A DNA stretch of 64,000 bases from Polynucleobacter sp. AP-Sving-400A-A2 (lineage in GTDB: Bacteria; Pseudomonadota; Gammaproteobacteria; Burkholderiales; Burkholderiaceae), in contig NZ_CP061312.1 of NCBI RefSeq assembly GCF_018688155.1, forward strand, positions 1,054,001 through 1,118,000, given 5' to 3'. The number at the start of each line of letters is the position of its first letter. Position 1 is the first letter of the stretch. A program made the translations under genes and the position numbers. The notes below the pieces were generated by a model. It saw only the letters and a list, made by a program, of their open reading frames with translations, did not search any database and had not been told where the DNA came from. Below are positions 48,514 through 58,651 of this stretch, piece after piece.

Positions 48514-50436
48514 CTAGCTAAGCTCGGGTCCGACTTTCTGAGAAATATCCTGCTGGAGTCGGGCAACGAAGGCATCAAGAGGCATTACCCCTAAATCCAC
48601 TCCGCCACGGGCACGAACGGCCACCGAATTACTTTCTGCTTCTTTGTCCCCTACAACTAACAAAAATGGGAGCTTCTGTAATGCGTGCTCGCGTATTTTA
48701 TACGTAATTTTCTCATTTCGCAAATCCGATTCGACTCTAAACCCTTGTTTTTTCAGAGATTGCTGGACTTTTTGAGCATATGCAGCAGAATTATCCGAGA
48801 TATTGAGGACTACAGCCTGAGTCGGAGCAAGCCAAACTGGCATATTTCCAGCGTGGTTTTCGATCAAAATACCGATAAAACGCTCTAAAGAGCCCACAAT
48901 TGCCCTATGAAGCATCACTGGGGCCTTACGGGTGTTCTCTTCGGTCACATATTCAGCGCCTAAACGGGCTGGCATTGAGAAATCCACCTGAATCGTGCCG
49001 CACTGCCAAGTACGCCCGATGGAGTCCTTGAGGTGATATTCGATCTTCGGACCATAAAAAGCACCCTCACCTGGCAATTCTTCCCATTCTTGGCCTGAAG
49101 CGGTCAAGGCGCCACGTAAGGCAGCCTCCGCTTTATCCCAAATAGCATCATCACCAACGCGCTTTATTGGGCGCAAGGCGAGCTTTACAGCGACTTCAGT
49201 AAAACCAAAGTCTTGGTAAACCTCACGAACCGCTTTATCGAATGCAGCTACTTCAGACTGAATTTGATCTTCAGTACAGAAAATATGACCATCATCTTGT
49301 GTGAAACCGCGGACGCGCATCAAACCATGCAATGCACCAGACGGTTCGTTACGGTGACACTGACCAAACTCGCCGTAGCGTAATGGCAATTCACGATAGC
49401 TGTGTAATCCTGAATTAAAAATCTGTACATGTCCCGGGCAGTTCATCGGCTTTAATGCATAAGCACGATTCTCCGACTCCGTTGTAAACATGTTTTCCTT
49501 GTAGTTATCCCAGTGGCCAGACTTTTCCCAAAGGCCGCGATCCAAAATTTGCGGGGCCTTGACCTCTTGGTAGCCTTCGCGCTGATAAACGCGGCGCATG
49601 TACTGTTCAACTTCTTGCCAAATAGACCAGCCTTTTGGATGCCAGAAAATTAAACCAGGTGCTTCAGCTTGAAAGTGAAATAAATCTAAGAACTTACCGA
49701 GGCGACGGTGGTCACGCTTCTCAGCTTCTTCGAGCATATGCAAATGCGCATCTTGATCTTCTTTTTTCAACCAAGCCGTGCCGTAGATCCGTTGCAGCAT
49801 CTCATTCTTGCTATCGCCACGCCAGTAAGCACCAGCAACACTCAGAAGCTTGAAGACCTTGAGCTTGCCAGTAGATGGCACATGGGGTCCGCGGCATAAG
49901 TCAGTAAACTTGCCCTCAGCATACAAAGACACATCTTCACCCTGCGGGATGCTAAAAATAATCTCTGCTTTGTAATTTTCGCCTTGATCTTTAAAGAACT
50001 TCACGGCTTCATCACGCGGCATTACTGTACGAATCACTGGCTCATCTTTTTTAGCCAGCTCAGCCATTTTCTTCTCAATTGTCACCAAATCTTCAGGCGT
50101 AAACGCACGATGAAATGAGAAGTCGTAATAAAAACCGTTTTCGATTACTGGGCCAATCGTGACTTGTGCCTCTGGGAATAACTCTTTAACGGCATAGGCC
50201 AATAAGTGGGCAGTGGAATGACGCACAATCTCCAGCGCTTCTGGGCTTTTGTCCGTGATGATGGCTAATTGACTATCTTTGTCGATCACAAAGCTAGCAT
50301 CAACCATCTTCCCATCAACAATGCCGCCGAGGGCAGCTTTGGCAAGGCCGCTTCCAATGCTTTGGGCAACATCAAGAACGCGTACGGGAGCTTCGAACTC
50401 ACGTTTAGATCCATCTGGCAGGGTAACTACAAGCAT
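48514..50436 (-). CDS. thrS: Threonyl-tRNA synthetase
   Basis: The 640-residue class II synthetase has a TGS domain (residues 1-61), an editing domain with [11 protein letters not shown] and the zinc ligands (HDGH-like in FTQDDGHIF), the catalytic core with [10 protein letters not shown] and the C-terminal anticodon-binding domain. It is the first gene of the thrS-infC-rpmI-rplT-pheST-ihfA operon. tRNA-Val and its terminator lie upstream. Confidence 0.97.
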
Positions 50437-50645: not shown

Positions 50646-52667
50646 TCACCGGCGGCGCACTTGGGTCACCCCTTTGACTTCTTCCAGGGCATTTTGGGTA
50701 AGTCTCAAGGCTTCCGAGTCTTTAATCTCCACCGTCAACAGTATTTGCGCAAGACCCCGCTTGGCAGATTTGCGAAGATCAATCACATGGATACCCTGCC
50801 TTGTCAGAATCTCAAACAGCTCGCGCATCAGCTCAGGGCGGTCTAGCCCGGTTACGGCTAAATCCGCAGGAAATACACGCTTAGGATCATTTCCGGCAGT
50901 TATTTCAGACCCAGAATCATTCCAGGCGGTTTGGATGACGCGCTCGGGAGCTCGCTCCAATAAACCTCTAAATGTTTTGCATGAGCGTCGATGAATGGAT
51001 ACGCCACGACCTTGGGTCACAAAACCTGCAATCGCATCGGGTGGTACCGGCCGGCAACACCGCGCCAACTGAGTCATCAAGGAATCCACCCCAACTACCA
51101 AAACATCACCTGCCTGACCCTGCTTACGAGTGCTTTGTTTAAGAACAATTTCTGGGGCTGGAGTAATTGCTTTCGTCTCCGTCTTTTGTTCCACCTTAGT
51201 GTCAGCGGACTTAGACCCCGCCTCTTCATCATCCAAAGCATTAAACCAAGCGCGTACACGTGTGCGAGCACGCTGTGAACGCAAGTAATTGCGACTCGGA
51301 CTAATCCAATCGCGTGAGGGACCACCATGTTTTACAGCAATGATTTCAATAGTCTGGCCATTTTGCAATGGCGTATCTAAAGGCACCATCGCACCATCTA
51401 CTCGAGCGCCACGACAACGGTGACCCAGGTCGGTATGAACTGCATATGCAAAGTCGATGGGCGATGAACCCTTCTCCAATGAAATGACTTTTCCTAATGG
51501 AGTGAGTACATAAATATGGTCATCGATCTCATGGTGCTTGAGTTGCTCCCAAGCATCTTCTTTCCAGGAGATGAGTTGCCTTGCCCAAGCAATTTGGCGC
51601 TCATAGGCAACTGCCGCACTATGGGTACCAGTTTGATAACTGGAATTTGTGTCATTGGATTTATTTCTAGGCGGAGTTGCAGTACCAATATAAGCACCCT
51701 CTTTGTAACGCCAGTGCGCAGCTAAGCCATACTCAGCCTGTTGATGCATTTCATGAGTACGCACCTGAATCTCAAATGCCGTCCCATGTTCATCCATTAC
51801 TACAGTATGTAAAGATTGATAGCCGTTTGGTTTTGGTCTGGCAATGTAGTCATCAAATTCACGTGGCACAGGCTGCCAGACGTTATGCACTATTCCTAAA
51901 ATAGCGTAACAAGATTTAACGTCATCTACTAGGACTCTAAACGCCCTGACGTCATAGAGATTGGCGAAGTCGATTGACTTACCCTGCATCTTTTTCCAAA
52001 TACTGTAGATGTGCTTTGGGCGACCTTGAACCTCACCTTCAATATGGGTGGCATTTAATTCCTCTTTCAGCTTACTCACAATCTGATGAATAAAAGATTC
52101 ACGCTCAATACGCTTGCCATCCAACATCTTAGCGATGTCGCGGTAGATCTCTGGAGAGAGAACTCGAAATGCCAAGTCCTCCATCTCCCATTTCATTTGC
52201 CAAATACCAAGGCGATTAGCAAGCGATGCATCAATATTGAGAATCTCTTGTGCCCAAGCTTTTGGCATCTCGATTTTTTCTTGATTGATCCAACGCAGCG
52301 TTTGTAAGCGCGAAGCAAGATAAATCAAAACGACGCGCAAGTCATCTCCAAAAGCGAGCAGCATCTTTCTGAGCATTTCTTCTTGCCCAGAAATACTCAG
52401 ACCGCCATCATTGCGAACCAGCTTAGCTTGAGCTTGCCGTAGGCCACGGTAACCAATCAGTAGTCTCGCCGACTCATCGCCAATGAGTTTGGTGAGTGAT
52501 TCTTTGCCGTGAGTGCGGGCAATATGATGTGCAGCTGTGAGTGTTGCCTCATCTAAGTGAAGCAGCTTCAGTATGCCGAGAACGCCAGCGGTATGATTTT
52601 CAGAAGGCTCACCATACCAGCCATCAATAATTTTGATGCTCTCAGATGCAGAAGAAGCATTTGACAT
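50646..52667 (-). CDS. relA: RelA-type (p)ppGpp synthetase
   Basis: The 673-residue protein makes (p)ppGpp on stalled ribosomes. The synthetase domain has EFDDYIARPKPNGYQSLH (E270 to H287), that is, the EXDD motif of RelA rather than the RXKD of bifunctional SpoT/Rel. The HD hydrolase motif is missing from the N-terminal region (residues 30-180). A TGS domain (about 395-455) and a C-terminal ACT domain (about 600-673) follow. This suggests a synthetase-only enzyme. Confidence 0.93.
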   Translation of the reverse strand: MSNASSASESIKIIDGWYGEPSENHTAGVLGILKLLHLDEATLTAAHHIARTHGKESLTKLIGDESARLLIGYRGLRQAQAKLVRNDGGLSISGQEEMLRKMLLAFGDDLRVVLIYLASRLQTLRWINQEKIEMPKAWAQEILNIDASLANRLGIWQMKWEMEDLAFRVLSPEIYRDIAKMLDGKRIERESFIHQIVSKLKEELNATHIEGEVQGRPKHIYSIWKKMQGKSIDFANLYDVRAFRVLVDDVKSCYAILGIVHNVWQPVPREFDDYIARPKPNGYQSLHTVVMDEHGTAFEIQVRTHEMHQQAEYGLAAHWRYKEGAYIGTATPPRNKSNDTNSSYQTGTHSAAVAYERQIAWARQLISWKEDAWEQLKHHEIDDHIYVLTPLGKVISLEKGSSPIDFAYAVHTDLGHRCRGARVDGAMVPLDTPLQNGQTIEIIAVKHGGPSRDWISPSRNYLRSQRARTRVRAWFNALDDEEAGSKSADTKVEQKTETKAITPAPEIVLKQSTRKQGQAGDVLVVGVDSLMTQLARCCRPVPPDAIAGFVTQGRGVSIHRRSCKTFRGLLERAPERVIQTAWNDSGSEITAGNDPKRVFPADLAVTGLDRPELMRELFEILTRQGIHVIDLRKSAKRGLAQILLTVEIKDSEALRLTQNALEEVKGVTQVRRR

Positions 52668-52682
52668 GGGTGACTGAAATCC

Positions 52683-54503
52683 TTAACTAAAGAATTCTTT
52701 TGCTAAAGCCACTTGTTCTGATTTCACAAAGGCAGGTGCATGACCAACCTCTGGAATTTCAATACTCCGAATGTAGGGGTTAACTTTGCACATCTCGGCT
52801 ACAGTTTTTGCTGAAAGCAAATCGGATTCCCCGCCACGCACAATCAACATCGGGATATGGATTTGCTTGAAGGCATGCCACATCGCCATCTCTCCCGCCT
52901 TTGCCATAATTGGATTAACCGATGCAAACGGCACAGAGATATCCGGGTCGTAATGCATTACCCAAAGACCCTCTTTTTGCACGAGCATGGGGCCGTTATA
53001 AATCTCCCACTCTTCTGGAGTGTGACTGCCAAAAGATGTGCAGATCTCATTGAGGCGCTGCAAAGCATCGGTACGATTAGAAAAGCTAAAAGGCTGGCCA
53101 ACATATGAGCCTAAACGCTTGATAGCTTCAGGCTCAATGCGTGGACCCACATCATTAATTAACATCCTGCGAATTGGACTCTTGGGCATTGCGGCATAGA
53201 CCATGCCAATCAAACCACCCATAGAGGTTCCAAACCAATTCACTTGTGTAAGGTTAAGCTGTTTAATCAAGCTCGCCATGTCTGCAACGTACTGAGGAAC
53301 GCCATAGTGCATAGGGTTCTTGAGTCGATCAGAATCACCTCGTCCCACTACATCTGGACACACAACGTAATAGTCCTGATTCATTGCCTCAGCCAGGGTT
53401 TTGAAATCACTCCCCCTGCGCGTCAGTCCATGAACACACACTAATACCTTCGAGTTATTAGGATTACCCCAGGCGTGGTAGGCTATGCGATGAGGACCGT
53501 CAGGACTAGTGCAAGTCACAAAGAAGGTATCACCACGATGAAGGACATTCGACTTTTGAATCTCATTATTCAGGTGTGCGTCATGCGTATGCTCATCTGC
53601 TATGCCAGGAACCTCTGGCTGCAAGGTAACATGATCAATTCCGTGTTTATCAAATAGCATCTGATTGATACGCGCCATGATTTCAGGCCATTCGCCAATA
53701 CGCTCAATTTCAATATGGCCAATCAGTGCTGGGAAGCTGGGCGTCATCTCCCAAACATGCAGATCATGCACCGCCAAAACACCTGGCACCTTTTTTAAAT
53801 CTTGACCGACCTGTAAATAGTCGATATGTAGTGGCACCCCTTCCATGAGGAAGTGATACGACTCCTTCAAAATTGAAATGGTAGATTTTAAGATTAAGAG
53901 AGAGACCAAGATAGATAAGATGGCATCAATCGGCATCCATCCAGTAAGCTGAATCACAATACCTGCAATCAGAGCAGCTATAGATCCCAGCAAGTCACCC
54001 ATGACATGAACCAAGGCGGCGCGGGTATTGACACTCTTTTTATCGCGCGACAGCACCCATGCCACCACAATATTCATTACCAAACCAATGGCAGCCACTA
54101 TCGTGACAGTTAAGCCATCCACTTTATGCGGGTCATAGAATCGACTCACTGCCTCAAACATAATCCATGCAACTAATGCCAGCATTGCAATGCTATTGAC
54201 AAAAGCCGCTAAGGCCTCGGCTCTGCCGAATCCAAACGAATGTTTTGCTGATGGTGGACGACGGGAAATGATTTGAGCTAGCAATGCTAAACCCAGTGCG
54301 GCAGCATCGGTCACCATATGACCCGCATCCGATATTAGCGCTAAAGAATTTGCAAAGTAAGCAGCAGCACCCTCAACTCCTGAAAAACCCAGTGTAAGCA
54401 CCAAGGCAATCAGCAGGAGATTCTGGTTAGAGACTTCCTTGCTATGGGTATGCTTAGCATCACCCTGCTTGTGTGCGTGAAGTGAATGATCTACAACGCT
54501 CAT
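52683..54503 (-). CDS. Cation-diffusion-facilitator transporter fused to an alpha/beta hydrolase
   Basis: The 606-residue protein combines two unrelated domains in one uninterrupted frame. Residues 1-300 are a CDF cation-efflux protein: histidine-rich N terminus, six hydrophobic segments, the metal-site pairs H62/D66 and H166/D170, and a C-terminal cytoplasmic domain. Residues 325-606 are an alpha/beta hydrolase with HG at 358-359, the nucleophile S427 in GTSMGG, D561 and H588. The linker has HTHDAH. No internal ATG with a ribosome-binding site precedes the hydrolase. It is probably a zinc-class exporter, but the hydrolase's substrate and any coupling are unknown. It lies 15 bp upstream of relA on the same strand. 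Confidence 0.85.
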   Translation of the reverse strand: MSVVDHSLHAHKQGDAKHTHSKEVSNQNLLLIALVLTLGFSGVEGAAAYFANSLALISDAGHMVTDAAALGLALLAQIISRRPPSAKHSFGFGRAEALAAFVNSIAMLALVAWIMFEAVSRFYDPHKVDGLTVTIVAAIGLVMNIVVAWVLSRDKKSVNTRAALVHVMGDLLGSIAALIAGIVIQLTGWMPIDAILSILVSLLILKSTISILKESYHFLMEGVPLHIDYLQVGQDLKKVPGVLAVHDLHVWEMTPSFPALIGHIEIERIGEWPEIMARINQMLFDKHGIDHVTLQPEVPGIADEHTHDAHLNNEIQKSNVLHRGDTFFVTCTSPDGPHRIAYHAWGNPNNSKVLVCVHGLTRRGSDFKTLAEAMNQDYYVVCPDVVGRGDSDRLKNPMHYGVPQYVADMASLIKQLNLTQVNWFGTSMGGLIGMVYAAMPKSPIRRMLINDVGPRIEPEAIKRLGSYVGQPFSFSNRTDALQRLNEICTSFGSHTPEEWEIYNGPMLVQKEGLWVMHYDPDISVPFASVNPIMAKAGEMAMWHAFKQIHIPMLIVRGGESDLLSAKTVAEMCKVNPYIRSIEIPEVGHAPAFVKSEQVALAKEFFS

Positions 54504-54568
54504 AAAGGAATCTTTAAAAAAGAAAATGGGGTCATTAACCTCATTATTTCACTATCTATAAAAAAGAC

Positions 54569-57500
54569 CTAACGCAAGCTAGCCAAGACCTTTTCTAGGC
54601 GCTTTAAGGACATTGGGCTTGGGGTCTTTAACTCTTGGGCATATAGAGCCACTCTCAATTCCTCGAGTTGCCAACGAAAGTCCGCTAAAGCCTGATCTTC
54701 ATTAGTAGTATATGCAGCAGAGCCATGGCCAGCCTGAACGAGTTTTTGCCATGGTCTGGCAACCGACTCCCAATCTTTTTGGCACTGTGAATCACGGCTA
54801 GGGTTAGCACGCAATTTATCAATGCGCATGGCAATAGCCTTGAGATAGCGAGGGAAATGTACTAACTGGCTATATGGCGTATCTGAAACAAATTTAGGAA
54901 ATATGAGCCCCTGGACCTGATTCTGAATATCCACATGAGCAGTAGCTGAGGCAGCCTTGGCTTGAGACAATTTCTTTTGAAGATCCGCATAAGCCTGCAA
55001 GGCCGCCAAGGCATGCTTTGAAATCTCCTGTGCAATCAGAGCTAAACGAGGCTTGCCTGCTTGCAAACGCTCTGCAAATTGCTCGGCATTTACTGGTAGT
55101 GGGTCATTCATAAATGCCCGCTCTAATGCAAGATTCAGAATTTGCTCAATTAAGCTATCAACAGACCCAATATTAATAAAGAGCAAACCAAGCTCCCGAA
55201 TTCCAGGGAGTTGTTTTTGTAGTGCCTTGAGTGTGTCTTTATTCGATAGTGCGAATAATCTGCGCAATCCTTGCCAATGATGTTTTCTAGCTTCCAATAA
55301 ATCATCAAACACTTCAAGATCACATGCTTCGGTACGATCGACCAAGGCGGGATAGCCAAATAAAGTGCGATTGCCTTTCTGAATTTCTAGAGTCTCGGGC
55401 AGTTCACCAAAGTCCCAGCTTCGATAACCACCCTGCTCGACCGTTTTTACTAAAGATGCATTAGCGCTTTGATTGGTTTTACCAATAGGCGCTAAATTAT
55501 TTACTGGGGTAGCACTCCCGAGCTCATCATGAACTGCTTGCTGCGCTATGGCCTGGAAGGCTGTGCGAGCAGTCTCTCCATACTCAGCTCGCAATCGGGA
55601 TAAATTACGTTCCAACTCTAATTGGCGGCCGTGCTCATCCACCAGACGAAAATTCATTGAAGAATGTAAAGGTAAGGATTCTGGCCTGAAATCAGTACGC
55701 TTAATTTCTAAGCCACGTTCTTTACGAATATCGGTAATGAGGGTGTCTAAAAAATCACCTACCCCAAACTGCTTGCTTGATAACATCCGCTCTAAAAACG
55801 ATTTTGCATACTCGGGCAGTGGGAGGCAGTGGCGACGTAATTTCTGAGGAAGTGATTTGAGTAATAACCCAATTTTTTCTTCACACATGCCTGGCACCAA
55901 CCAATCACATCGACGACCATCAACCTGATTCAATAGAGTTAAAGGCACTACCAGCGTTACTCCATCTTTGGGACTGCCGGGCTCAAAATGATAAGTCAAA
56001 CTCAGTTCGCTACCACCAACCATCATCTTTTTTGGATAGCGATCTACCGTAATGCCGGCAGCCTCGTGGCGCATTAAATCTGCTTTAGCTAGGCGCAAAA
56101 GACTGTCAGGACTCTCCTCGGCAACGCCTTTGTTTGCCAATGTCTTTAGCAACCAGGCTTTCATACTTTCCCTACTTAGAACATCTTCAGGAATGCGTGA
56201 ATCATAAAAAGCAAAAAGGAGATCATCATCCACCAACACATCGGGACGTCGTGAGCGATGCTCTAAAGCTTCAATCTCCTTAATCAGTCTGCGGTTATGC
56301 CAAAAGAATTCAAAAGTCCCAGGATATTTTTTTCTAGCATCGGCTTCGGTCTCTCGCATTAATGCAGGGCTATCCATACGGCCAAACATCTCTTCTTGAA
56401 CTAAGGCCTGGGTAATAAACAAGTTACGAGCATCTTTTGGATTGTGAGGCTCATAACGCACGCGACGACCGTGATAAATTGGCAGGCCATATAGAGTGCC
56501 GCGCTCAAAGGCCATGACCTCTCCTTGTCGGCTATCCCAGAATGGCTCACTCAAAGATTTAATCAGACGGTGGGCTGCAACCTTCTCAACCCACCCAGGC
56601 TCGATTTTGGCAATCGTGCGAGCGTACATGCGATTAGTTTCTTGCAGTTCGCCAGCCAAAATCCAAGCGCCGGCTTTTTTGCCAATCGTTGAACCCGGCC
56701 AAATAAAGGGACGAATACCGCGAGCACCCATATAGCTGCCCGTCTTACTACCACGCTCTTGAGATTTTTCATCCTCTTCTTTTTTAGCTACATAACCTAA
56801 GAGGCCAGTTAATAGTGAAAGATGAACTTGTTCGTAAGTAGCAGCAGATGGATTTTCTCTCCAACCCTTTTCAGCCAACATGGTGTGCAGTTGAGCATGA
56901 ACATCGCGCCATTCACGCAGACGTCTTGGTGACAAAAACTTACTACGACATAGATTCTCTAATTGTCGATTGCTATGCTTGTGCTTTAGGGCATCTTGAT
57001 GCCAATCCCACAATTTGACGAAACTCAGAAACTCGGAACGCTCATCAGCAAACTGCAAATGCGCTTGGTCAGCGGCAGCTGCTTGATCCATGGGTCGATC
57101 ACGAGGATCTTGTGTAGCCAAAGCGGAGGCAATGATAGTGACCTCACGTAATGCGTTGTGCTCCTTAGCTGCTAATAGCATTCGACCAATCCGAGGATCT
57201 AATGGCAGATCTGCTAACTGCTTACCAATAGAGGTGAGCTTGAATCTGCTGTTGCTATCTGTATCGTTATTGATGGTGACATCGTCATAGACGATGGCGC
57301 CCAACTCATCTAGAAGCTGTACCCCGTCGGCAATCGCGCGACCCAAGGGTTTATCAATAAATGGAAATTCTTGTATACGAGGTAAACGTAGAGAGCTCAT
57401 GCGAAGCAAGACCGCCGCTAATGAGCTGCGCAAAATTTCTGGATCAGTAAATTTGGGACGACTTAAATAATCTTGCTCGCTATAGAGACGAATACAAATA

Positions 57501-58651
57501 CCATCTGACACACGACCACAACGACCTGCTCGCTGATTGGCTGCCGCCTGTGAAATTGACTCGATTTGCAGTTGCTCTACTTTATTGCGATAGGAATAAC
57601 GCTTGACTCGTGCCAAACCGCTATCGACCACATAACGAATATTGGGAACTGTTAATGAGGTCTCGGCAACGTTAGTCGTCAAAATAATTCGTCGACCGTT
57701 ACCAGGATTAAATACACGCTCTTGCTCTGCAACCGATTGCCGAGCAAAAAGACTCAAAATCTCCGGATGGAAACGCTGCTGAATTACATGGTCTTTTCTG
57801 AGCGTTTCAGCACAATCCCGAATCTCCCGCTCACCGGGTAGGAAGACCAGCACATCGCCCGCACCAGATACGCCTTCACGCCATACTTTTGCAATTGCTT
57901 CTGTTACTGCGTCCGAAAGCTCCTTGGCCTCTTTAGATTCTTTTTTTCCGTCAGGCTTCACATCAGGCTCTAGTGGTTCGTAACGTTGCTCAACCGGGAA
58001 AAGTCGCCCACTCACCTCAATTACCGGAGCAGACTTGCCATTTAATGAGAAATGATCTGAAAAACGCTTTGCATCAATAGTCGCTGAAGTAATGATCAAC
58101 TTGAGGTCTGGGCGCTTGGGGAGCAACTGCCGCAGATAGCCTAATAGAAAATCAATATTGAGGCTACGTTCATGAGCCTCATCGATAATGAGAGTGTCGT
58201 AGGCACGCAGCTGAGGGTCTCGCTGCGTTTCTGCTAGCAAGATGCCGTCGGTCATTAACTTGATGGAAGCGCCCTGACTGGTCTTATCAGCAAAGCGCAC
58301 TTGGTAGCCGACGTCTTGACCAATTGGGGTTCCCAACTCCTGGGCGATACGCTTTGCAGTGGCTGTAGCAGCAATGCGACGAGGTTGTGTGTGCCCAATG
58401 AGGCGACCACCGTTCATAGTGCCCCTGCCCAGATCTAAACAGATTTTGGGTAATTGGGTTGTTTTACCAGAACCAGTCTCACCACAGACGATCACAACCT
58501 GATGAGAACTCAAGGCATCTTTGATGATTTGACGTTGACCAGATACCGGCAACTCCTCCGGAAAGCGAATCTCTAGCCGTCGGGAGGTGTTGGAAGCAGG
58601 CACAGTCTCAGGGCTTGCTTTGGGTTTTTGTTGGTTTAATGGCTCTTGCAC
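54569..58651 (-). CDS. hrpA: ATP-dependent RNA helicase HrpA
   Basis: The 1360-residue DEAH-box helicase has GETGSGKTTQ (residues 57-66), the IIDEAHERS box, SATI, FLPGEREI and the QRAGRCGR motif VI, followed by the HA2/OB region and the long DUF3418 C-terminal part typical of HrpA. E. coli HrpA helps to rescue or split stalled ribosomes. It is divergent from argA with 17 bp between the start codons, so its promoter must lie within argA. Confidence 0.95.
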   Translation of the reverse strand: MQEPLNQQKPKASPETVPASNTSRRLEIRFPEELPVSGQRQIIKDALSSHQVVIVCGETGSGKTTQLPKICLDLGRGTMNGGRLIGHTQPRRIAATATAKRIAQELGTPIGQDVGYQVRFADKTSQGASIKLMTDGILLAETQRDPQLRAYDTLIIDEAHERSLNIDFLLGYLRQLLPKRPDLKLIITSATIDAKRFSDHFSLNGKSAPVIEVSGRLFPVEQRYEPLEPDVKPDGKKESKEAKELSDAVTEAIAKVWREGVSGAGDVLVFLPGEREIRDCAETLRKDHVIQQRFHPEILSLFARQSVAEQERVFNPGNGRRIILTTNVAETSLTVPNIRYVVDSGLARVKRYSYRNKVEQLQIESISQAAANQRAGRCGRVSDGICIRLYSEQDYLSRPKFTDPEILRSSLAAVLLRMSSLRLPRIQEFPFIDKPLGRAIADGVQLLDELGAIVYDDVTINNDTDSNSRFKLTSIGKQLADLPLDPRIGRMLLAAKEHNALREVTIIASALATQDPRDRPMDQAAAADQAHLQFADERSEFLSFVKLWDWHQDALKHKHSNRQLENLCRSKFLSPRRLREWRDVHAQLHTMLAEKGWRENPSAATYEQVHLSLLTGLLGYVAKKEEDEKSQERGSKTGSYMGARGIRPFIWPGSTIGKKAGAWILAGELQETNRMYARTIAKIEPGWVEKVAAHRLIKSLSEPFWDSRQGEVMAFERGTLYGLPIYHGRRVRYEPHNPKDARNLFITQALVQEEMFGRMDSPALMRETEADARKKYPGTFEFFWHNRRLIKEIEALEHRSRRPDVLVDDDLLFAFYDSRIPEDVLSRESMKAWLLKTLANKGVAEESPDSLLRLAKADLMRHEAAGITVDRYPKKMMVGGSELSLTYHFEPGSPKDGVTLVVPLTLLNQVDGRRCDWLVPGMCEEKIGLLLKSLPQKLRRHCLPLPEYAKSFLERMLSSKQFGVGDFLDTLITDIRKERGLEIKRTDFRPESLPLHSSMNFRLVDEHGRQLELERNLSRLRAEYGETARTAFQAIAQQAVHDELGSATPVNNLAPIGKTNQSANASLVKTVEQGGYRSWDFGELPETLEIQKGNRTLFGYPALVDRTEACDLEVFDDLLEARKHHWQGLRRLFALSNKDTLKALQKQLPGIRELGLLFINIGSVDSLIEQILNLALERAFMNDPLPVNAEQFAERLQAGKPRLALIAQEISKHALAALQAYADLQKKLSQAKAASATAHVDIQNQVQGLIFPKFVSDTPYSQLVHFPRYLKAIAMRIDKLRANPSRDSQCQKDWESVARPWQKLVQAGHGSAAYTTNEDQALADFRWQLEELRVALYAQELKTPSPMSLKRLEKVLASLR

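Follow-up and report, generated by a model that had tools for sequence, protein, structure and literature searches.

A CDF metal exporter fused to a putative 3-hydroxybutyrate-oligomer hydrolase in the genus Polynucleobacter

Zinc-type CDF metal exporters typically carry an HDHD metal site, and a cytoplasmic C-terminal position fits the topology of the family. Among alpha/beta hydrolases, PhaY2 (H16_A1335) is listed as a 3-hydroxybutyrate (3HB) oligomer hydrolase in PMC3430594, and PMC3734047 counts phaY2 (H16_A1335) among a pair of hydroxybutyrate oligomer hydrolases. A published table assigns an 870-base alpha/beta hydrolase gene to phaY2 and a 2253-base gene to phaY1 (PMC11767486), and PhaZb/PhaZc (PhaY) are described as cleaving 3HB oligomers during mobilisation (PMC3556143). 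The original prediction for the DNA studied here knew of no standard fusion of a CDF protein with such a hydrolase. The two families are indeed normally separate, but one protein of this kind has been in print since 2010: a passage of PMC2894845 notes one CDF protein of Polynucleobacter sp. QLW-P1DMWA-1 (printed there as QLW-PIDMWA-1) as a fusion, with an additional domain called homologous to MhpC. The fusion as such was therefore already in print through this passage, the one report of a CDF-enzyme fusion found in our searches of open-licence literature. Its spread, its single clade and origin, its PhaY2-like identity and its gene context were not found in those searches.

The window, the whole stretch of 64,000 nucleotides analysed here, comes from Polynucleobacter sp. 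AP-Sving-400A-A2, whose genome comprises 2.03 Mb in one contig. The fused gene (52683..54503, minus strand) is a single open frame of 606 codons running from ATG to stop with zero internal stops, and encodes a protein of 606 aa with a calculated mass of 66.6 kDa. The computed probability of a random frame of this length staying open at this GC is ~6e-15. Pfam searches revealed a Cation_efflux transmembrane domain (PF01545) at residues 30-220 (53844..54416, minus strand; 150.4 bits, cut-off 26.6), followed by the CDF C-terminal domain ZT_dimer (PF16916) at residues 226-297 (53613..53828, minus strand; 40.3 bits, cut-off 26.7). A variable, His- and acid-rich linker (residues 298-326; 53526..53612, minus strand), set apart by its dN/dS and composition, leads into a PhaY2-like alpha/beta hydrolase domain (residues 327-606; 52686..53525, minus strand). 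The hydrolase domain was recognised by Abhydrolase_1 (PF00561; residues 353-452, 60.9 bits, cut-off 25.8), by Abhydrolase_6 (PF12697; residues 354-598, 53.1 bits, cut-off 26.3) and by identity to the C. necator proteins P0213 and P0223. With 606 codons free of stops and the domains of both halves above their Pfam cut-offs, the earlier claims of one continuous frame and of a fusion between two normally separate families were borne out. Checking of codons on the minus strand placed the metal-site residues H62 (54318-54320), D66 (54306-54308), H166 (54006-54008) and D170 (53994-53996), and the triad residues S427 (53223-53225), D561 (52821-52823) and H588 (52740-52742), exactly where the original prediction had put them. 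Its statement that no internal start divides the halves was correct for the linker, as the sole ATG/GTG/TTG codon in residues 296-352 is a GTG at residue 329, at the start of the alignable hydrolase domain. The strand, the PhaY2-like identity and the ketone-body/PHB neighbourhood were absent from it. A crude hydropathy scan confined the hydrophobic stretches to residues 24-215 and did not resolve them into six transmembrane segments.

The CDF half passed TIGR01297 (266 bits, cut-off 82.35) and scored 261.7 of the 408 bits set for the ZitB equivalog NF002923. The fused gene was the only PF01545 match in the window genome. H62 and D66 were present in 231/231 fused rows, and H166 and D170 in 230 of them; a few genomes are counted twice among these rows and among the 45 linker rows described below (e.g. 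L005/L044, L025/L041, window/L001). The full fused frame was obtained from 44 of 46 loci, as L021 (broken) and L024 (cut by a contig start) gave none. We take the pairs H62/D66 and H166/D170 to be the TM2/TM5 metal site of the CDF half and the HDHD site of the fused protein to be of the zinc type.

A search of 186 Polynucleobacter genomes identified the full-length fusion in 135. A further seven carried copies disrupted by stops or frameshifts (G017, G023, G085, G087, G088, G089 and G101), and inspection of contig ends showed the fusion cut or spread by them in six. Separate CDF and hydrolase genes, checked by their open frames, were found in 27 genomes; the genes were adjacent in 13/186 and separated by BDH, in the order CDF-BDH-hydrolase, in 14/186. 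Three genomes (G150, G180 and G188) gave partial matches only and eight, with a completeness of 56-85%, gave no match. Both domains were present in 120/120 database clusters among the matches listed, and the named database relatives of the fused protein were Polynucleobacter, save one named 'Pseudomonadota bacterium' twice over. Outside the genus, none of the matches listed spanned both halves, whether among 300 genomes of the order or among 369 of the class, and when 11 one-half matches in long open frames were opened, 0/11 frames held both halves. In another family of the order, a 631-codon open frame of L233 (G331) encoded a CDF at residues 45-333; the ~300 codons after the CDF had no hydrolase match, and are either open by chance or a further C-terminal extension. 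The fusion is real and long-kept, in many Polynucleobacter species.

Analysis of the gene neighbourhood identified two conserved neighbours by synteny, a downstream RelA/SpoT-like gene (50646..52667, minus strand; TIGR00691 475.8 bits, just below the subfamily cut-off of 499.2) and thrS (48514..50436, minus strand; TIGR00418 728.3 bits, cut-off 383.65). On the other side, HrpA (54569-58651) lies upstream of the fused gene in the window genome in place of CtfAB; CtfA/CtfB have moved away and lie ~237 kb from the fused gene (C1:869609-870256). HrpA was ~225-243 kb from the fused gene and on the opposite strand in 5/5 relatives checked, a distance and orientation that point to an inversion with its breakpoint at or just upstream of the stretch 54504-54568. 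This short upstream stretch (54504..54568, minus strand) carries the TGAAATAATG motif common to relatives and is a candidate promoter region; an AATAATG motif was present upstream of the fused gene in 12/13 relatives and in the window. In the nearest relatives the stretch also holds a GC-rich palindrome with a T-run behind it, a pattern that is imperfect in the window. The motif and palindrome are candidates for a promoter, terminator or attenuator. Because a consensus scan of 54504-54568 returned zero sigma-70-type matches and no promoter-like site, with the AATAATG motif and the palindrome unreported by the scan, we only infer a promoter function for 54504..54568.

The same set of CtfA, CtfB, hydrolase and RelA was found in Polynucleobacter relatives and in other Burkholderiales. 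In one relative (L037) CtfA, CtfB and BDH passed TIGR02429, TIGR02428 and TIGR01963, respectively. Among 80 named Burkholderiales loci from Cupriavidus, Ralstonia, Paraburkholderia, Pandoraea and others, which were the top 80 of a larger set, the four genes occurred together in 76, the hydrolase had BDH as its neighbour in 35, and a CDF was found in 0/80 within the stretches examined. In L107-L110, four genomes from a different family within the order, a CDF adjoined thrS. In the alignment the CDF of one of these outgroups, L107, has Asn rather than His at the H166 position. Judged from this synteny, the hydrolase descends from a CoA-transferase-hydrolase-RelA-ThrS cluster. The simplest history would have a CDF gene entering the CtfA-CtfB-(BDH)-hydrolase-RelA-ThrS cluster in Polynucleobacter, between CtfB and the hydrolase.

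Phylogenetic analysis grouped the fused genes. In a RelA+CtfA+CtfB tree of 45 rows, 18/18 fused rows formed one clade (support 100/100), nine three-gene rows a second and nine adjacent-gene rows a third; support for placing either of the latter two as sister to the fused clade was not firm (93/72). The hydrolase tree agreed, with the fused rows grouped at SH-aLRT 96, and the CDF tree grouped them too, with a support of 12. From the RelA+CtfA+CtfB tree we omitted L035 and L100, whose stretches lack RelA, and L040, whose genes are broken; L046-L050, L110 and the broken copies of L045 and L082-L086 were omitted from all three trees. Repeated independent fusion was considered and is not supported, as the divergent 64-68% group (L077-L080) fell inside the single fused clade in the RelA+CtfA+CtfB and hydrolase trees; the CDF tree joins this group to the other fused rows with a support of 12. 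Most likely, then, the fusion arose once, after the CDF gene had entered the cluster, in one lineage inside Polynucleobacter. Gene arrangements like its necessary precursors survive in sister species. In unfused species the spacing between CDF and hydrolase was -4 (overlap), 0, 11, 51-53 or 217-269 nt, and in L201 the hydrolase ATG comes immediately after the CDF stop codon and in frame with it. The suggestion that loss of a stop joined two neighbours is supported only to the extent that relatives keep the genes adjacent or separated by BDH.

An N-terminal extension that opens with basic and hydrophobic residues distinguishes the unfused Polynucleobacter hydrolases from the fused form, where this segment is missing. 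The segments were weakly amphipathic (combined p ~0.03 for seven chosen rows), with many rows indistinguishable from shuffles and low p values in some rows only. Among the outgroup hydrolases, L111 likewise has a hydrophobic N-terminus, and the start site is uncertain in several of them. Under one explanation the fusion is neutral: operon neighbours were joined once by chance and have been kept since each half works, the tethering bringing no benefit. A single origin, as in the trees, would be enough for this, the CDF already adjoined the hydrolase, and sister lineages keep the genes separate, either with an intervening BDH or at spacings running from an overlap of 4 nt, or 0 nt, up to 269 nt. 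However, re-splitting within the fused clade was seen only as degraded copies, and the absence of the N-terminal extension from the fused form may mean functional substitution. On balance we regard a neutral fusion as rather unlikely, and prefer the reading in which tethering serves the hydrolase.

To what substrate the hydrolase half is directed was assessed by comparison with C. necator. The hydrolase was 52% identical over 283 positions (4 gap positions) to both P0213, named '3-hydroxybutyrate-oligomer hydrolase', and P0223 of strain H16, named 'poly(3-hydroxybutyrate) depolymerase'. The length of the C. necator protein, 293 aa, fits PhaY2 and not PhaY1. We take P0223 to be the H16_A1335 product from its name, length and neighbourhood rather than from an accession match. 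The Ser-Asp-His triad (S427/D561/H588) was retained in 231/231 fused rows and in 8/8 rows of alignment A1. No hydrolase model exceeded its NCBIfam cut-off for the fused protein among the best 25 of 31 matches, and no listed hydrolase model reached the cut-off for P0223; the intracellular PHA depolymerase model NF050089 (i-nPHAscl) gave 53 of 300 bits, below its equivalog cut-off. The window genome also encodes PhaC, BDH, PhaZ and CtfB, and the core of the PHB cycle therefore looks present.

The specificity of an alpha/beta hydrolase is hard to infer at 52% identity, and the domain might act on another substrate, splitting a C-C bond as in MhpC or another ester. The general alpha/beta hydrolase similarity to MenH, PcaD, RutD and others is consistent with such an activity, as is the homology to MhpC asserted in the PMC2894845 passage. 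Against it, the listed hydrolase matches were far under their curated cut-offs, the proteins at 52% identity are named for 3HB oligomers, and the neighbours are a 3-oxoacid CoA-transferase and, in some relatives, a 3-hydroxybutyrate dehydrogenase. A different substrate is thus unlikely in our view, and the hydrolase half is best read as a putative PhaY2-type 3HB-oligomer hydrolase.

Selection on the fused gene was measured as dN/dS in 15 non-independent pairs that passed dS limits. The median was 0.51 in the linker, compared with 0.026 in the CDF half and 0.057 in the hydrolase. Purifying selection acts on both halves and to a far smaller degree on the linker. Linker length varied widely among fused rows and no conserved motif was seen in these linkers. 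In 45 fused rows, the linker had a median His content of 13% compared with 5% for whole proteins and an acidic residue content of 20.5% compared with 9.6%, and 30/45 linkers contained at least three His. In contrast, 25 unfused CDF tails were 5-17 residues long with 0-2 His; these tails were picked by a motif, which found them in all of the 27 split genomes except L207 and L209. Of the seven broken copies, five had kept the CDF frame with a broken hydrolase, one showed the reverse and one was broken in both. In G101, where the CDF frame was kept, a stretch near residues 230-262 was divergent or missing. These few cases are suggestive at most, and hint that the halves can decay apart. CtfA was also truncated, split or odd in four broken-copy genomes (L040, L045, L082 and L086), RelA and PhaC were also in pieces in G017 (L040), and in L106 the fused gene was intact and the CtfA and CtfB frames were broken. 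From their size and gene decay, we would guess that the seven genomes with broken copies are endosymbionts.

The fusion had also been proposed to link hydrolysis with metal flux, a proposal that gained no direct support, the linker being fast-evolving and variable in length. Functional coupling could take two forms: metal at the CDF or the His-rich linker would regulate the hydrolase, or hydrolysis close to the exporter would affect transport. Either way, a single molecule would co-regulate PHB mobilisation and zinc efflux. The retention of an intact fusion across most of the genus, the exporter's place as the only PF01545 match in the genome and the His enrichment of the linker relative to unfused CDF tails are consistent with coupling, of which the His-rich linker is the one hint. 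The relaxed selection, variable length and absence of a visible conserved motif in that linker argue against coupling, as does the one-sided decay of the broken copies, five against one, though the numbers are few. Neither the CDF nor the alpha/beta hydrolase family is known to depend on the other. Coupling is therefore distinctly unlikely. Its boldest form, to which we give slightly less credence still, is a metal-responsive PHB enzyme in which zinc bound to the exporter or to the His-rich linker would gate the 3HB-oligomer hydrolase, as a Polynucleobacter-specific transporter-hydrolase 'transceptor'; if true, zinc export and carbon-store breakdown would be coupled in one membrane protein. 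Finally, nothing was found to favour an assembly artefact or missed stop, whose probability is vanishingly small, and assembly error, recent stop loss or a sequencing error at 53.5 kb, as raised with the original prediction, were ruled out by the same intact frame in 135/186 genus genomes, both domains in all 120 database clusters among the matches listed, the single fused clade and the absence of the hydrolase N-terminal extension.

Taken together, our best reading of the whole, held with moderate confidence, is a bifunctional membrane protein that joins a membrane-tethered PHB-mobilisation enzyme to the genome's only CDF exporter. Residues 1-297 would form a CDF-type metal/proton exporter with an HDHD site, presumably a homodimer through the ZT_dimer domain. 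Residues 327-606 would be tethered on the cytoplasmic side by the flexible His-rich linker and act as a PhaY2-type (R)-3-hydroxybutyrate-oligomer hydrolase. This domain is predicted to split 3HB oligomers that PhaZ releases from PHB; the resulting 3HB would be oxidised by BDH and then activated by the 3-oxoacid CoA-transferase CtfAB. The fusion would supply the hydrolase with a permanent membrane anchor and with 1:1 co-expression with the exporter, and the anchor perhaps takes over from the N-terminal segment, basic and hydrophobic, that the unfused Polynucleobacter hydrolases carry. This replacement step is tentative because of the weak amphipathicity of those segments and the hydrophobic N-terminus of L111. 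Metal export and hydrolysis most likely run independently. If true, this reading would locate PHB-oligomer hydrolysis to the inner membrane and sharpen the loose published label 'MhpC'. As a naturally occurring, stable fusion between a metal exporter and a probable storage-polymer hydrolase, retained in 135/186 genomes of a freshwater genus, the protein offers a clean test case for what preserves fusions of unrelated functions: physical tethering, co-regulation or chance.

Compared with known systems, the protein resembles CDF metal/proton exporters (TIGR01297; ZitB, CzcD and SLC30 types) in its Cation_efflux and ZT_dimer domains, both above cut-off, and in its HDHD residues; it differs in scoring below the ZitB cut-off and in ending in a 280-residue hydrolase. 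The PMC2894845 passage concerns one protein, with only 6-TMS CDFs analysed further, and does not give the extent, origin or gene context of the fusion. The hydrolase half resembles PhaY2 (H16_A1335) in its 52% identity, its triad and, in Burkholderiales relatives, its neighbourhood of CtfA-CtfB, RelA and ThrS, often with BDH. In contrast, the C. necator proteins of PhaY2 type are separate polypeptides of ~293 aa that match from residue 9 and carry no transporter domain.
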